The position numbers and the translations under genes were made by a program. Shown one piece after another: positions 55,438 through 64,000 of a DNA stretch of 64,000 nt. The stretch comes from Paenibacillus graminis (GTDB taxonomy: Bacteria > Bacillota > Bacilli > Paenibacillales > Paenibacillaceae), in NCBI RefSeq assembly GCF_000758705.1, contig NZ_CP009287.1, positions 5,456,001 to 5,520,000 of the forward strand, given 5' to 3'. Every line of letters begins with the position of its first letter. The stretch's first letter is position 1. The notes beneath the pieces were generated by a model. That model was not told the DNA's origin, ran no database searches, and was given only the letters and a program-made list of their open reading frames with translations.

Positions 55438-57903
55438 TTGAACAAACAACAGATCGTAAGTTCTTTGCTGGCCATCACGCTTTTGGCGGCCCCTCTGGCA
55501 TCGCCAAAGGCGAATGCCGCAGCCCTGTTCTCTGATATTAACAACTCCTATGCAAAGGAAGCCATATTGGAGTTGCTCGATAAAGGCATCATCAGCGGAA
55601 TAGGGGACAACAGGTTTGATCCCTCAGGCCAGCTTAAACGGCAGGATTTTGCAATTATTCTCGCAAAAACGCTGAGTCTCGATACCACAACTATACCTTC
55701 CGTTCCCACATTCAGCGATGTGCCTAAGAGCAGTTATGCCTATAATGCTGTAGAGGCTGTCTATCAGGCCGGATGGATTAATGGTTTGGGAAATGGCCGG
55801 TTCGCCGCCGGCAGCCCACTGTCCAGACAAGATATGATCGTAATTTTTGTAAGGGCTCTGGGTATTGAAGCTTCCGACAAAAGCTCCTTCCTGCCGTTTG
55901 CCGACAGCGCAAAAATCGCCGATTATGCCAAGGCTTCGGTTGCAGCCGCACTAGAATATGGCCTCATCCAGGGAGAGGGCGGCAATTTATTCAACCCGGC
56001 CTCAAATGCGGACCGCCAGAGTGTAGCCTTGGTTGCCTCCAAGTTCATCAAGGTCAAAGAGGCTGCCGCAGCACCTGCTTCCCAGGCTACGCCTACTGTG
56101 ACTGCAACACCAGCTGTTACATCGTCACCACAGCCAACCGCCACTCCTTTGACGGTCTACACGTCTGTTTATTATCCGGAGCAGACCGCCGCTCCTTCGC
56201 CGGAGCCAACGGCTGCCCCTACACCGGAGCCGACGCCTGTTCCTACACCGGAGCCGACACCTGTTCCTACACCGGAGCCGACGCCTGTCCCTACACCGGA
56301 GCCGACGCCTGTTCCTACACCGGAGCCGACACCTGTTCCTACACCGGAGCCGACGCCTGTCCCTACACCGGAGCCGACGCCTGTTCCTACACCGGAGCCG
56401 ACACCTGTTCCTACACCGGAGCCGACACCGGATACAACAGCGCCTGATGTCGATGCAGCAAAATTCGCGGCTGTTGACAACTACAACGGAACCTTGGATC
56501 AGCTATATGGAGTTGAATCTGCCGTGAGTGAAGAAGGAGCGGTGGTCCAAGCCTATCCATGGAAAGATATTAACGAGAATGGATGGGCCGACAAAGATGA
56601 ACTTAGTACAGCCATTCCACTGGGCGCTAGCCTTGCTGACGGTTCTGTGACCGCTGCGGACATCGGTGATTTTTCAGCCGGAAACTATACTGTCGTAATT
56701 ACCGCTACTGATTCAGCGGGGAATGAATCTCCCAAGGATGCGGCACATGCTTTCAGCTTTTCATTGACCAAAAATGAAGTGCCTGACGTAACCGCTCCTG
56801 AAGTGGATGTGCTCAAGTTTACGGCTGTCGATAATTATAACGGGACGCAGGACCAGCTTACCGGTGCCGCTTCCGCAATTAGTGAACAAGACGCAGCCGT
56901 TCAAGTCTACAGATGGAATGACATGAATGAGAACAGCCAGGTTGATGAGGGTGAATTGGGTGCTGCCCTTTCTGTGGGCACAAGCGCTGAAGACGGTTCC
57001 GTGGCCGCTGGGAACATCGGTGACCTTCCGGCCGGCAATTATCATTTTGTGATTACTGCCACGGATGCATCCGGGAACGAATCAGCGAAGGATGTTGAAC
57101 ATGCCGTCAGCTTTTCATTTATCAAAAATGAAGCTCCTGACTTAACCGCCCCTGAAGTGGATGTGCTCAAGTTTACGGCCGTTGATAATTATAACGGGAC
57201 GCAGGACCAGCTTACCGGTGCCGCTTCCGCAATTAGTGAACAAGACGCAGCCGTTCAAGTCTACAGATGGAATGACGTGAATGAAAACAGCCAGGTTGAT
57301 GAGGGTGAATTGGGGGATGCCCTTTCTGTGGGCACAAGCGCTGAAGACGGTTCCGTGGCCGCTGGGAACATCGGTGACCTTCCGGCCGGCAATTATCATT
57401 TTGTGATTACTGCCACGGATGCATCCGGGAACGAATCAGCGAAGGATGTTGAACATGCCATAGAAATCATACTGCAAAAATCGACAGCTCCAACCCTGCC
57501 TTCCCTCTTATACGGATTTGACGGGGCTGGCAGCAAAACGAAGTATTTTACACCCGGAAGCACAGCACCTACGGTCCGTTTCGATTTTTTCAGCAGTGAA
57601 AAATTCACCAATGCGATTATAGAAGTTACCTTGGAGGGGCTGACCTTCAGCACCAATGACTACTATAGCATCAGCGGCTGGGTTCATCCGACTGCAGGTC
57701 AGATCAGCAATGGCGGGCACACACTCACTTTCACGGGTAACGCATCGGCGACGTCGGATATTGCCTTCCAGCTTCAAAACAAGAACATTCCCGCTGCTGG
57801 AACTTACAAGATTAAATACAGAGCGGATGCTGACGGGACAGGAACTGCCAGAGTATTCTCGGAAGAGCAGTACATTACCCTGATTTCTGGTTATCCGAAT
57901 TGA
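55438..57903 (+). CDS. Surface protein: three SLH domains, Pro-Thr-Glu stalk, three repeat domains
   Basis: 821 residues from TTG 55438. Signal peptide ([17 protein letters not shown]...ANA). Three S-layer homology domains (about 30-85, 90-145, 150-205) that bind pyruvylated wall polymer. A stalk of nine PTPEPTPV octapeptides (about 262-331). Three 118-residue EF-hand-like/Ig-like units each starting PDVDxx[19 protein letters not shown] and containing a calcium-loop-like DxNExxxxDExEL segment; units 2 and 3 are almost identical. A unique C-terminal domain of about 140 residues follows. Likely displayed on the cell surface; function unknown. Confidence 0.9.
56221..56430 (+). repeat. 24-bp coding repeats with 72-bp higher-order period
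   Basis: Nine copies of ACACCGGAGCCG plus a variable half encode PTPEPTPV. The variable halves cycle ACGCCTGTTCCT, ACACCTGTTCCT, ACGCCTGTCCCT in order, so the array grew by copying blocks of three. Confidence 0.9.
56443..57475 (+). repeat. Three tandem 354-bp coding repeats in the SLH gene
   Basis: Units begin at 56443, 56797 and 57151. Units 2 and 3 differ at only a few bases (for example ATGAATGAG/GTGAATGAA), showing a recent duplication. Unit 1 is clearly diverged. Confidence 0.9.
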
Positions 57904-60452: not shown

Positions 60453-60520
60453 CTTTACAAGATATTTATGACTTAGTTATTAAAGAACCCCCAAAAAAAT
60501 TCTATTCTTTAATAAAGAAC
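60453..60520 (+). promoter_or_regulatory. Promoter/operator region of the cysteine-rich peptide genes
   Basis: TAAAGAAC occurs at 60481-60488 and again at 60513-60520, exactly 32 bp apart (three helical turns). The second copy forms the inverted repeat TTCTTTA-A-TAAAGAA (60505-60519). A weak promoter TTTACA...TTATTA lies just before. These are candidate sites for the winged-helix regulator encoded at 63648-63989. Confidence 0.4.
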
Positions 60521-60556
60521 TAAAATATACATTTTTTTCGGAAAGGAGGTGTATTC

Positions 60557-60739
60557 ATGTCTTGTCCAAGTGGCTATACCTATGTTGACAAATGTGATTC
60601 AAAGTTAACTTGCGAAGATGGTTGTGACATCTGGGGTGTAGGCTGGTGGCATCATTATGATCGTTGTAAGGATTCCTCTGGTCAAACAATTTGCAATTAT
60701 GTTAACTCCACCTATTATGGATGTGATTGTAAATTTTAG
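60557..60739 (+). CDS. Small cysteine-rich peptide (8 Cys), putative modified or disulfide-rich product
   Basis: 60 residues beginning MSCPSGYTYVDKCDSKLTC and ending STYYGCDCKF. Cysteines at 3, 13, 19, 23, 37, 46, 56 and 58; aromatic-rich centre (WGVGWWHHYD). No signal peptide or obvious leader. Start ATG 60557 has a near-perfect GGAAAGGAGGTG ribosome binding site, so the gene is clearly meant to be translated well. I do not recognise the family. A second, related peptide gene follows 53 nt downstream, and a convergent operon with a cysteine desulfurase and three CxxC proteins faces it. A ribosomally made, sulfur-modified or disulfide-bonded peptide is the best inference. Confidence 0.8.
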   Translation: MSCPSGYTYVDKCDSKLTCEDGCDIWGVGWWHHYDRCKDSSGQTICNYVNSTYYGCDCKF

Positions 60740-60792
60740 CTATTGAGATCAATAAACCCAACAAAATTGATAATTAAGGGAGAGGAATCAGT

Positions 60793-60980
60793 ATGGCTAG
60801 TTGTATTGAGGGATGGACTGAGATTACCGACTGCAAGAGCAATTTTTCATGTAATACTAGCCAGGTTTGCAGTACACTGCCTGTACTCGAATATACATGG
60901 TATGAACACAAATATGTTTGATGCAGAAATGATACAACTGGAGCGACCGACTGCTTTTGAAAGTTATTATTCCCAATGCT
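60793..60980 (+). pseudogene. Second cysteine-rich peptide gene, interrupted
   Basis: ATG 60793, preceded by AAGGGAGAGG, encodes MASCIEGWTEITDCKSNFSC and on to residue 42 (YEHKYV), where TGA stops it (60919-60921). Past the stop the frame continues CRNDTTGATDCF, and a +1 shift gives ESYYSQCC then stop. Aligned with the first peptide, both share C-x9-C-x5-C at the start and comparable cysteines at the end, so this is a paralogue carrying one nonsense codon and one frameshift. The first 42 residues (four Cys) could still be made. The overlapping frame at 60743-60985 has no ribosome binding site. Confidence 0.65.
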
Positions 60981-61014
60981 GTTGACGGGAAAGGTTGAAT
61001 AGCAGATAGATATC

Positions 61015-61043
61015 AGGCTGTCCAGCTACAGAATGGACAGCCT
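61015..61043 (+). terminator. Hairpin after the peptide genes
   Basis: AGGCTGTCC and GGACAGCCT form perfect 9-bp arms around AGCTACAGAAT. A T-run (CCTTTTTATT) follows 13 nt later on the plus strand, so termination strength is uncertain. Confidence 0.55.
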
Positions 61044-61093
61044 AATATCTATACCTTTTTATTCACCCCAATCAAACCGCCGTCCGTTTTTGT

Positions 61094-61549
61094 TTATCCG
61101 CTATTACTATCCAAACTTGCCCTAGCATCCTCATAAACTAATTTATAGTATTCGTTACCACAGACATAACTCTTTAATACTACTCCATTACGAGCGACTC
61201 CGTATAACCATGGCGTATTATCCGTTTTTAATTTTTCTTTCATATCGTGTACTGCATATTTGGATATTGAAACATTCTCCGGAAATTCATTTCGCAAATA
61301 TTCAATTTTCTCGTCAGGACCATCCGCTAGTATTAATAAGTTAACAGGTCCATGAGCTTCCAAAAAGATACTCAACTCCTCAAGTGCTGATATACACGCC
61401 TTGCAGTATACACTTAACAATATAACTAATAGATAGTCATCCACAAGTTCATTAAAATATCCTCCATTGGTCAGCTTAATATTGGGGAAAGTTTCGCCTA
61501 TTTCAAGCGTTTTGGGCCTATGGTCATGAAACTTGAACAGGTTCGTCAT
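61094..61549 (-). CDS. Thioredoxin-fold CxxC protein A
   Basis: 151 residues, redoxin/TlpA-like. N-terminal IGETFPNIKLTNGGYFNELV is the AhpC-TSA-like entry, then strand LLVILLSV and active site CKAC (C49, C52), helix, and strands LLILADG and GVVLKSYVCG (extra C near 135). No signal peptide or lipobox, so it is probably cytoplasmic, unlike most TlpA proteins. GGAAGGAGG precedes ATG 61549. It is the last gene of the minus-strand operon, 18 nt after the cysteine desulfurase, and resembles proteins B and C upstream. Confidence 0.78.
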   Translation of the reverse strand: MTNLFKFHDHRPKTLEIGETFPNIKLTNGGYFNELVDDYLLVILLSVYCKACISALEELSIFLEAHGPVNLLILADGPDEKIEYLRNEFPENVSISKYAVHDMKEKLKTDNTPWLYGVARNGVVLKSYVCGNEYYKLVYEDARASLDSNSG

Positions 61550-61567
61550 ATCATCCTCCTTCCTCCA

Positions 61568-62788
61568 TCACACATATGTTGGCTTTTCTAGAGAATTCTC
61601 ATAGTCATTCAAGCAACGTTTAACCCCCGCCGAATCAAGCTCTTCTAACACACTTACAAGCGCAGATATAAGCCTGTCCATACACTCGAGATCATAGGTT
61701 TCGTTATAGCTTACTCTTATACTGCTTCCGCTGATCGCTGTGGTTTTGCCCATTGCCGACAAAATACGGCTTGCCTTGACAGAAGTTGATGAACAAGCCG
61801 ATTGTGAGGAAGCACAAATTCCTTTTCGCTCAAGCAAGTTTAGCAGCAAAGCAGAAGATACATTCGGAACAGATATATTCATAATATGCGGTGCTCCATA
61901 AGGTGCAAGAGGGCTGTTGATTACAATACCGTCAATTCCCTTTAATCTTGAAAGCAAATAGCTATAGTTTTGTTGGAGTATGTCTTTTCTTTCCTGCATT
62001 CTGAAGATGGACAACTCGATCGCTTTGGCGAGAGCCCAGATGATGGGAACATTAATTGTACCCGAACGCAGCTCCATTTCCTGCCCACCGCCGTACAGAA
62101 GAGGTTCAATGCTAATCGCTTCCTTCTTCACCAGAACACCTACTCCCTTTGGAGCACCGATCTTATGTCCGGAAATGACATATAAATCAATGTTTGCGAG
62201 AGACAGATCGACTTTCCCTAATCCCTGTACTCCATCAACATGAAAACAAATGTCAGGATAATTTGTTTTGAGCATTTCTCCAATCTCTGCTACGGGTTGA
62301 ATAGCACCTGTCTCATTATTGACATGCATTATACTGACCAGAACCGTATTGGGCTGGATTAACCCCACCAAATGTTTTACATCCACCAGACCGTCGGGGT
62401 TTGTTTTTAAATAGGAGACGGATACTCCCTCAGTCTCCAGTCTTTTGTAACAATTCAAAACAGACGGATGTTCTATTTCAGTTGTAATTACATGAAGAAG
62501 GCCAATATGTTGTTTACGAAAATGGTTGATGTAACCAAATATAGCCATATTATTACTTTCTGTCGCTCCTGAGGTAAAAATTATTTCGATTGGGCTCACC
62601 TTCAGTGACTCACCGATTATTTTACGAGAAAGCTCCAGCCTTTGATTCGCCTCCATTCCAAAAAAATGCGTGGATGAAGGATTGGCGTTCATATTGAAAT
62701 TTTCTGTTGCAGCCTGAAACACTTTTAAAATTTCAGGATGGATCGGTGCTGTGGCCGCGCAATCGAAATAAATTTTTTTTTTATCCAT
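61568..62788 (-). CDS. Cysteine desulfurase, NifS/IscS-like (group II-like active site)
   Basis: 406-residue PLP enzyme that takes sulfur from cysteine as an enzyme-bound persulfide. IYFDCAATAPIHPEILKVF at the N-terminus, FTSGATESNNMAIFGY (PLP phosphate), VSIMHVNNETGAIQPV, HVDGVQGLGKVDLSL, SGHKIGAPKGVGVLV (Schiff-base lysine) and the active cysteine in CASSQSACSSTSVKASRI (near 332) are all present. No iscU or tRNA thiolation gene is adjacent; the neighbours are thioredoxin-fold proteins and cysteine-rich peptides, pointing to a dedicated role. Starts 4 nt after protein B. Confidence 0.92.
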   Translation of the reverse strand: MDKKKIYFDCAATAPIHPEILKVFQAATENFNMNANPSSTHFFGMEANQRLELSRKIIGESLKVSPIEIIFTSGATESNNMAIFGYINHFRKQHIGLLHVITTEIEHPSVLNCYKRLETEGVSVSYLKTNPDGLVDVKHLVGLIQPNTVLVSIMHVNNETGAIQPVAEIGEMLKTNYPDICFHVDGVQGLGKVDLSLANIDLYVISGHKIGAPKGVGVLVKKEAISIEPLLYGGGQEMELRSGTINVPIIWALAKAIELSIFRMQERKDILQQNYSYLLSRLKGIDGIVINSPLAPYGAPHIMNISVPNVSSALLLNLLERKGICASSQSACSSTSVKASRILSAMGKTTAISGSSIRVSYNETYDLECMDRLISALVSVLEELDSAGVKRCLNDYENSLEKPTYV

Positions 62789-62792
62789 TTCT

Positions 62793-63200
62793 TTAATCTC
62801 CTATCTTTTTGATTAATTCATTCCAAGATTCAATTTTTATAAAATTCGGTACACTCGAATGATTTAATTTGATTACATAGGGCATTTTATATTGCGACAA
62901 TTTCTGAAGCGATACTGTTTCGTAAGTTCCTGTCATCGGTCCCGAAATTCGATATAATTCTTTTATCGCGGCCATTGCACCATAATCCCCACAGTCCAGG
63001 ACCAGCAATATTTTATGATCAGTAAAAAACTGTTGATTATCTTCATATGAGGAAAGAATATTCATGCAGGTCAAACAGTACATTGATAGAAACAACAATG
63101 AATCGAATTTTTTGAATAAATCCTCAGCTTGGATTAGTTTCAGAACTTCTTTGCTGTCCCAGCGCTCAGTTTGTGTCTCATGCAACTTACTGAAAATCAT
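62793..63200 (-). CDS. Thioredoxin-fold CxxC protein B
   Basis: 135 residues. Short N-terminus, hydrophobic strand LLFLSMY, active site CLTC (C42, C45), then ILLVLDCGDY and a C-terminal cis-Pro-like region YKMPYVIKLN. Same layout as proteins A and C but with low identity. No signal peptide. ATG 63200 overlaps the stop of protein C in an ATGA arrangement and has GAGGTG upstream. Probably hands sulfur or electrons to or from the desulfurase next to it; this is inference from position. Confidence 0.72.
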   Translation of the reverse strand: MIFSKLHETQTERWDSKEVLKLIQAEDLFKKFDSLLFLSMYCLTCMNILSSYEDNQQFFTDHKILLVLDCGDYGAMAAIKELYRISGPMTGTYETVSLQKLSQYKMPYVIKLNHSSVPNFIKIESWNELIKKIGD

Positions 63201-63631
63201 GGCTTCACCTCATTTATGAATTCAATACGGAGTATATCTTGCATGTGAGATAGATTTATCCATTTTCCAGAACCGATAATAATATTGTTCTGATCCACGA
63301 CATAGTAGTACGGTTTGGAGTATGCCTTCAGCAATTTAAATTCGTCACTTTCCAGCCCTTGAACGGGGTAGCGATTCATGAGATATTCAGTAAGTTGTTG
63401 ATTCTCAATATACGATCCATCCGTCAACAAAACAATATTTATCCTGCTTATAGGCCCACAGCTCTTCAGCTCTTCAATCATTTCCATGCACCTTAAGCAG
63501 TTAAAAGATAAACATATAAGCAGATTTCGATTAGAAGTATACCTCTGATTCAGTGGCAGCATTTCGCCCTTTGCTAGAATCTCAACATCCTCTGCCATCC
63601 TCATTTGAAATATCTCTGAGAATTTGGACAT
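63197..63631 (-). CDS. Thioredoxin-fold CxxC protein C
   Basis: 144 residues. Strand LLICLSF, active site CLRC (C45, C48), helix MEMIEELKSC, strand INIVLLTDGS, cis-Pro-like KPYYYVVDQNNIIIGSGKW. The arrangement matches redoxin domains, and a further cysteine at 40 precedes the motif. GGAGAGG precedes ATG 63631. It lies 16 nt after the winged-helix gene, so the regulator and A, B, C and desulfurase appear to be one transcript. Confidence 0.74.
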   Translation of the reverse strand: MSKFSEIFQMRMAEDVEILAKGEMLPLNQRYTSNRNLLICLSFNCLRCMEMIEELKSCGPISRINIVLLTDGSYIENQQLTEYLMNRYPVQGLESDEFKLLKAYSKPYYYVVDQNNIIIGSGKWINLSHMQDILRIEFINEVKP

Positions 63632-63647
63632 CGCTCGTCCTCTCCAT

Positions 63648-63989
63648 TCAGATGGAAGTATTGCAGCACTTTAGCATATACCCCCCGCCTTTCCTCGTAA
63701 TCAGATAGGTAGGCTGTTTAGGGTCGTCCTCAATTTTGCTGCGCAATTTTTGAATGGTCATATATACATTCGCTTCTGAACCAATGCCACTCCAAATCGA
63801 TTTCAACAAGTCTTCGGAATTGACGATGCAATCACAATTTTGGGTTAAAATTTGCATAACCTCCGTTTCACGAGGACTGAGATAAATGATTTTGTTGTTT
63901 TTACGGACCGCTCTTTTTTTCAGATCAAAGAATAGATAGCTGCTGTCCAAGGCCTGTGGCAAATCAGGAATATTTCTTTTAATGATCAT
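63648..63989 (-). CDS. Stand-alone OmpR/PhoB-type winged-helix DNA-binding protein
   Basis: 113 residues consisting of little more than the C-terminal DNA-binding domain of response regulators: IIYLSPRETEVMQILTQNCD, VNSEDLLKSIW, VYMTIQKLRSKIEDDP (recognition helix) and YLITRKGGGYML (wing). No receiver domain is visible; ATG 63989 lies 11 bases from the window edge and no ribosome binding site is seen in the remaining bases, so the true start might lie beyond. Likely controls the peptide genes or its own operon. Confidence 0.78.
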   Translation of the reverse strand: MIIKRNIPDLPQALDSSYLFFDLKKRAVRKNNKIIYLSPRETEVMQILTQNCDCIVNSEDLLKSIWSGIGSEANVYMTIQKLRSKIEDDPKQPTYLITRKGGGYMLKCCNTSI

Positions 63990-64000
63990 GTTAGTTTTCG

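Follow-up and report, generated by a model that had tools for sequence, protein, structure and literature searches.

The 64,000-nucleotide stretch of DNA analysed here (hereafter the window) covers positions 5456001-5520000 of the single-contig, 7.17 Mb genome of the soil bacterium Paenibacillus graminis and carries near its right-hand end a cassette of small cysteine-rich peptide genes, thioredoxin-like CxxC proteins and a dedicated NifS-type cysteine desulfurase. The assignment of this cassette as a laterosporulin-type bacteriocin locus is well supported by comparison of its gene products, and its probable function is to produce and fold small, cysteine-rich peptides with antibacterial activity. 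We favour, at a probability of roughly 0.55, the reading that a laterosporulin-type locus with a soluble CxxC folding machinery has here, and in the branch to which it belongs, replaced the presumed oxidant, the membrane protein MauE, with the desulfurase. What is new is the desulfurase at a locus of this type, seemingly in place of MauE; no account of a desulfurase in loci of this kind was found in the literature searched, one of the queries also matching longer words.

Gene content of the cassette

The window edge cuts the cassette, which continues for about 4 kb to the right, to window-equivalent position about 68041. Genes on this continuation of the contig (L004) are given in L004 coordinates, which equal the window position minus 59000.

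60557..60739, plus strand: peptide 1, leaderless, 60 amino acids, eight cysteines (MSCPSGYTY...), identified from its open reading frame (ORF) and Shine-Dalgarno sequence (SD) AAAGGAGGTG
60793..60921, plus strand: peptide 2, interrupted copy, 42 amino acids, four cysteines, in-frame TGA at 60919-60921
61094..61549, minus strand: thioredoxin-like protein A, CKAC, 151 amino acids, from sequence comparison
61568..62788, minus strand: cassette-type cysteine desulfurase, 406 amino acids (PF00266, E 3e-67; IscS-type matches)
62793..63200, minus strand: thioredoxin-like protein B, CLTC, 135 amino acids, from sequence comparison
63197..63631, minus strand: thioredoxin-like partner protein C, CLRC, 144 amino acids, from phmmer, AlphaFold and Foldseek
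63648..64000, minus strand: C-terminal part of a 206-residue OmpR-type regulator, start outside the window at window-equivalent 64268
L004 5343-5540, minus strand, beyond the window edge: peptide 3, eight cysteines
L004 5620-6237, minus strand, beyond the window edge: regulator 2, OmpR-type, paralogous to the first
L004 6388-6855, plus strand, beyond the window edge: thioredoxin-like CxxC protein D
L004 6845-8611, plus strand, beyond the window edge: ABC (ATP-binding cassette) exporter
L004 8586-9041, plus strand, beyond the window edge: thioredoxin-like CxxC protein E

Peptides 1 and 3 are short, leaderless and cysteine-rich, each with its own SD. Peptide 2 has 42 residues before an in-frame TGA stops it and is therefore an interrupted copy, the frame past the stop codon still being peptide-like in appearance. 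The first-pass annotation, made from the window's letters alone, had proposed two plus-strand peptide genes, of which the first, with its eight cysteines and SD, is intact while the second is cut short. It had also described a tightly packed minus-strand run, and this description holds: between 63631 and 61094 the genes for the desulfurase and the three CxxC proteins are spaced by about 5 and 19 nt or, at 63197-63200, share a 4-nt ATGA overlap, and the regulator gene is located about 16 nt upstream of the run. The stand-alone winged-helix protein of that annotation proved to be the visible end of a longer protein with a C-terminal Trans_reg_C domain and an N-terminal half giving no Pfam match above cut-off; both regulators of the cassette are OmpR-type and neither is a bare winged helix. 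Of the genes that the annotation had suggested looking for to the right of the window, a transporter is there in the form of the exporter.

The complete cassette encodes five CxxC proteins, which we read as soluble; their hydrophobic peak is the strand preceding the CxxC motif and exceeds 1.9 on the Kyte-Doolittle scale in protein E only. Protein C is the one among the five whose fold was examined. Its AlphaFold model (predicted local distance difference test score, pLDDT, 82) finds CcmG as its best Foldseek match (E 1.5e-6), in agreement with the thioredoxin fold suspected at the outset, and the model predicts a CcmG/ResA-like arrangement with the CxxC motif at a helix start and a conserved proline before the next strand. 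C45, C48 and P107 are invariant in 18 sequences of this partner protein.

Desulfurase cassettes and their peptides

The window desulfurase combines an aminotransferase class V domain (PF00266) with the catalytic residues His107, Lys209 and Cys332, all of which are in place, and on this basis belongs with the group I cysteine desulfurases. It scores below the NCBIfam equivalog cut-offs for both NifS (307 against 530.75 bits) and IscS (276.7 against 643.2). A search with this enzyme in 392 genomes of the order gave 39 matches at E <= 1e-89, counting that of the window itself, and all were fetched. The notion that all 39 mark cassettes was rejected: 14 are cassettes like that of the window, and 25 adjoin, as judged by eye, a gene that we take to be ThiI-like; the latter were set aside as housekeeping enzymes and used as controls. 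A scan of 80 loci from named genomes with the partner-protein profile gave five matches, four of them in already known loci and one in a new cassette, that of Paenibacillus sp. 2.1 (L106), which brings the cassettes with a desulfurase to 15. Inside the Paenibacillus sp. 2.1 cassette there is also an ORF of transposase-like look and no relation to the rest (L106 6033-7595).

The catalytic histidine, the pyridoxal phosphate lysine and the cysteine are kept in all 15 cassette desulfurases, which form one clade (SH-like approximate likelihood ratio test, SH-aLRT, 99) in a quick-method tree that also included 39 other, hand-picked desulfurases (54 sequences in all). Their closest relatives in the tree are the ThiI-linked NifS/IscS-type enzymes, with which they share fold family and catalytic residues; they differ from these in forming a separate clade and adjoining peptide loci, and the window enzyme in falling short of the IscS and NifS cut-offs.

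The association with cysteine-rich leaderless peptides, postulated in the first-pass annotation and put by it to a neighbourhood search, survives that search. One fixed rule found a cysteine-rich, SD-preceded small ORF at 14 of the 15 loci with a desulfurase, at 16 of the 23 related loci without one and at 2 of the 25 control loci, the two control ORFs resembling one another and not the cassette peptides. The count of 16 in 23 is low because the strict rule misses the three laterosporulin genes themselves (0/3) as well as those of L234, L236 and L237; among the 20 fetched desulfurase-free loci it finds 16, and by eye a cysteine-rich peptide lies near the partner gene in 19 of the 20, the exception being L222. 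At L221 the cysteine-rich peptide gene is present in two identical tandem copies (12182 and 12472).

Relation to the laterosporulin locus

The link to laterosporulin was first suggested by the cysteine pattern. A search of 299 genomes of the class with the laterosporulin homologue printed in PMC6510442 returned three full-length loci (L103-L105) and a fourth, weak match (L102). These three loci contain a regulator of LuxR-type look, the peptide gene, a thioredoxin-like protein, an exporter, a second thioredoxin-like protein, MauE, a small membrane protein and a further small protein; at L105 MauE and a DUF6941 protein are named by Pfam, and no desulfurase was seen in any of the three. In excerpts of the published accounts laterosporulin is a class IId bacteriocin with three disulfides (PMC6510442), and its locus comprises a regulator, a hypothetical protein, an ABC transporter and a dehydrogenase, with no mention of thioredoxin in the excerpt (PMC3293901).

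The second thioredoxin-like protein of the laterosporulin loci is homologous to one protein in each cassette. Protein C matches this laterosporulin-locus partner (144 aa) at phmmer E-values of 1e-8 to 3e-7, and the proteins of the other 14 cassettes do so at 1e-24 to 9e-11. At E <= 1e-12 a phylum-wide search for the partner protein matched one of 378 sampled genomes, which was the window's own. The exporter likewise matches that of the laterosporulin locus (E 5e-73), as do the exporters of those other cassettes for which a match was obtained; relatives of the DUF6941 protein occur at L035, L083 and L106. Because the CxxC partner is homologous and the gene set matches, we regard the cassette as a locus of the laterosporulin type, contrary to the earlier statement that no described class of bacteriocin or ribosomally synthesised and post-translationally modified peptide (RiPP) fits it; the desulfurase is the extra element. 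With the Brevibacillus locus (L103-L105; PMC3293901, PMC6510442) it has in common a leaderless small cysteine-rich peptide, an ABC exporter and a regulator. Both also encode soluble thioredoxin-like proteins, two at the laterosporulin locus, one of them homologous to the window's. The laterosporulin locus differs in that it lacks a desulfurase and encodes MauE, a DUF6941 protein and a small membrane protein, whereas that of the window has the desulfurase, five CxxC proteins, no MauE, and peptides with eight cysteines instead of six.

The relation between the peptides appears to run through group profiles and shared machinery more than through peptides 1 and 3 alone. The profile of the window group aligned with that of the laterosporulin group, which includes two peptides assigned by look (L234, L235), at 91% probability, and for 5 of 12 window-group peptides at most 1 in 300 cysteine-fixed shuffles scored as high. 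Against a five-peptide profile the laterosporulin homologue was equalled by 10 of 1000 cysteine-fixed and 28 of 1000 full shuffles, which is weak. Two other leads were abandoned. Alignment A1 (peptide 1, peptide 3 and peptides from three other loci) linked directly to solved structures by a chance match only (E 1.2), with no PDB match to laterosporulin, and a MauA-like origin of the peptides, suggested by an apparent resemblance, found no Pfam match.

As a separate observation, the DUF6941 family protein recurs in laterosporulin-type loci (L035 2879, L083 5876, L106 7713, L105 13593).

MauE and desulfurase at related loci

Profile A2, an alignment of 14 partner-protein rows, matched at E <= 1e-6 in 101 of the 384 genomes searched in the order, many of them weakly; 20 desulfurase-free loci were fetched. 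The desulfurase-free set was defined as all genomes without a desulfurase that have a best partner match at E <= 1e-18 (33) plus G515. In 33 of these 34 genomes MauE (PF07291), read by eye, is no more than 6 kb away from the partner gene, the exception (G040) having neither MauE at the locus nor a matching exporter; for 13 of the 34, whose loci were not fetched, the lack of a desulfurase is taken from the desulfurase search, whose genome sample was perhaps not identical. Among the 14 desulfurase genomes of the order, MauE is found at the locus in six. In the remaining eight the whole genome yields no MauE match better than E 3e-5: four of them, including that of the window (G000, G038, G118, G306), have none at E <= 1e-3, and the other four (G050, G054, G208, G146) have weak partial matches only, the best of which, in G146 (E 3e-5), is barely at the Pfam cut-off with in-frame neighbours. 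At the window's own locus the rightward search for MauE suggested by the first-pass annotation thus came back empty, and none was found within the 21-kb locus of Paenibacillus sp. 2.1. The pattern has a Fisher probability of 6e-5, or 5e-7 if the six loci with both genes are counted once, neither figure allowing for common ancestry among the rest of the sample.

Two pairs of loci are the best evidence, at the level of sequence, that MauE and the desulfurase may do the same job. L073, with the desulfurase, and L223, with MauE, share 87% DNA identity over blocks of 4.4 and 1.9 kb, between which L223 has about 780 bp, comprising most of the MauE gene with its domain, and L073 about 40 bp. Because L073 keeps the tail of the MauE gene (about 32 terminal codons, at 66% identity and E 1e-9, outside the Pfam domain), the change was probably a loss from L073 and not a gain in L223. 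The desulfurase gene follows the exporter gene, downstream of the gap, in L073 only; L223 has no desulfurase, giving one weak 80-residue tblastn match (E 7e-4) inside a permease gene, and genome G004 of this comparison has only two other desulfurases, elsewhere. In the second pair, L083 (desulfurase) and L233 (MauE and a 119-residue protein), the flanks are 96-98% identical, which places both clusters at the same chromosomal site, and the cluster proteins are 25-57% identical.

A possible cysteine-driven folding pathway

We propose that the small leaderless peptides would be made in the cytosol, oxidatively folded there by the soluble CxxC proteins and exported by the dedicated ABC exporter under the control of the two local OmpR-type regulators. 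In most relatives MauE would presumably re-oxidise the CxxC proteins; where it is missing, in the branch of the window, the desulfurase probably takes over. It would move the sulfane sulfur of L-cysteine onto one cysteine of a CxxC motif, and attack by the second cysteine on the resulting persulfide would yield H2S, alanine and an oxidised CxxC protein able to make the disulfides of the peptide. Dithiols such as dithiothreitol (DTT) discharge the desulfurase persulfide and become oxidised in doing so. Thioredoxins remove persulfide with release of H2S, according to an excerpt of PMC11763069, and an excerpt of PMC7794033 speculates that MauE forms disulfide bridges in methylamine dehydrogenase. 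Taken together, this putative role of MauE and persulfide removal by thioredoxins suggest that a desulfurase feeding a CxxC protein could act as a cysteine-driven dithiol oxidase. That the sulfur of L-cysteine, and not oxygen or quinone via a membrane oxidase, drives cytosolic folding, and that this route replaced MauE in one branch, we put forward tentatively, at somewhat less than an even chance; the cytosolic site, the direction of redox flow, the sulfur transfer to the CxxC protein and the antibacterial activity of the peptides are all inferred.

Several observations weigh against this reading as a whole. The six loci of a nested subclade (L068-L072 and L074) carry both genes, so the two can coexist, and L222 carries neither; the counts are not independent, related loci having been counted separately; and in the tree the window's enzyme sits on a long branch. 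One of the 15 desulfurase loci (L067) has no peptide that was found. Peptides 1 and 3 taken alone are equalled against laterosporulin by 117 and 23 of 300 cysteine-fixed shuffles, and the model of peptide 3, compared with a view to the defensin-like, three-disulfide fold of the laterosporulin family, is of modest confidence (pLDDT 73) and has no fold match below E 2. In the excerpted account DTT left laterosporulin activity unchanged (PMC3293901), which suggests that killing may not depend on its disulfides. Finally, both the sulfur transfer to the CxxC proteins and the role of MauE as oxidant are steps that we infer.

The desulfurase might instead add sulfur to the product, the CxxC proteins carrying persulfide to the peptide and leaving trisulfide, polysulfide or persulfide groups, much as the first-pass annotation had it. 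The desulfurase and partner genes are neighbours in 10 of the 15 cassettes (a peptide gene intervenes in one of the ten) and next-but-one in the window, and the coexistence of MauE and desulfurase in six cassettes looks as if their roles differed. Yet related loci without a desulfurase encode the same kind of peptide, the two genes exchange at otherwise colinear loci, and absence of MauE, the presumed disulfide oxidant, tends to go with presence of the desulfurase, which together make sulfur insertion unlikely. Thioamide formation, raised in the first-pass annotation, finds no support, since no ATP-dependent activating enzyme, as expected of a YcaO-type RiPP cluster, is among the ten proteins of the window's cassette, the one cassette scanned with Pfam for this purpose. 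The same scan found no scaffold or iron protein, and the characterised relative laterosporulin has three disulfides according to the excerpt of PMC6510442; that the peptides bind a metal or iron-sulfur cluster which the desulfurase helps to build, as eight cysteines beside a sulfur donor might hint, is accordingly very improbable. A chance recruit or passenger serving general sulfur metabolism (iron-sulfur clusters, tRNA thiolation) would agree with the ThiI-linked housekeeping enzymes being the nearest relatives. It would hardly account for a single clade with a cysteine-rich peptide gene nearby in all but one case and intact catalytic residues, when other desulfurase copies persist in genomes such as G000, G146 and G208, and we think it decidedly unlikely. 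Oxidation of the CxxC proteins by the desulfurase in place of MauE is the reading that we retain.

Relation to other systems and significance

A described analogy, already drawn in the first-pass annotation and rightly so, is the maturation of methylamine dehydrogenase: MauE is present in most related loci, and the CxxC protein C is MauD-like, its match to MauD (E 4e-4) lying below the cut-off. The mau cluster differs in that no match to a methylamine dehydrogenase subunit was found among the peptides and cassette proteins scanned, and the window's genome has no MauE match at E <= 1e-3. Candidate RiPP families predicted by decRiPPter in Streptomyces, in the excerpt of PMC7794033, likewise pair MauE, and in one family MauD too, with a predicted precursor containing eight or more of a residue that the context indicates to be cysteine; they are predictions only, belong to another phylum and, in that excerpt, come with no mention of a desulfurase.

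If the proposed pathway is right, disulfides could be formed with no need of oxygen or quinone, which would be a new way to power this chemistry. The comparison also places laterosporulin, on whose maturation genes the excerpts of PMC6510442 and PMC3293901 say little, in a larger family of clusters with their own folding machinery, which could bear on the reported failure of expression from a 4 kb clone of the locus (excerpt of PMC6510442).

Neighbouring genes

Lipoproteins of solute-binding type adjoin several of the peptide loci (L224 4733-6022, PF01547; by look also at L069, L071, L236 and L237) and are candidate immunity proteins. To the right of the window's cassette, at L004 9926-11279 (window-equivalent 68926-70279), an ABC transporter fragment stands against a frame of the major facilitator superfamily type (both by look); these may be transporter genes that have decayed or been rearranged. 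Within the window, a large ORF at 55438-57903, of surface-layer type by its look, contains an extended Pro-Thr-Pro-Glu repeat tract and, in its C-terminal part, repeated modules.

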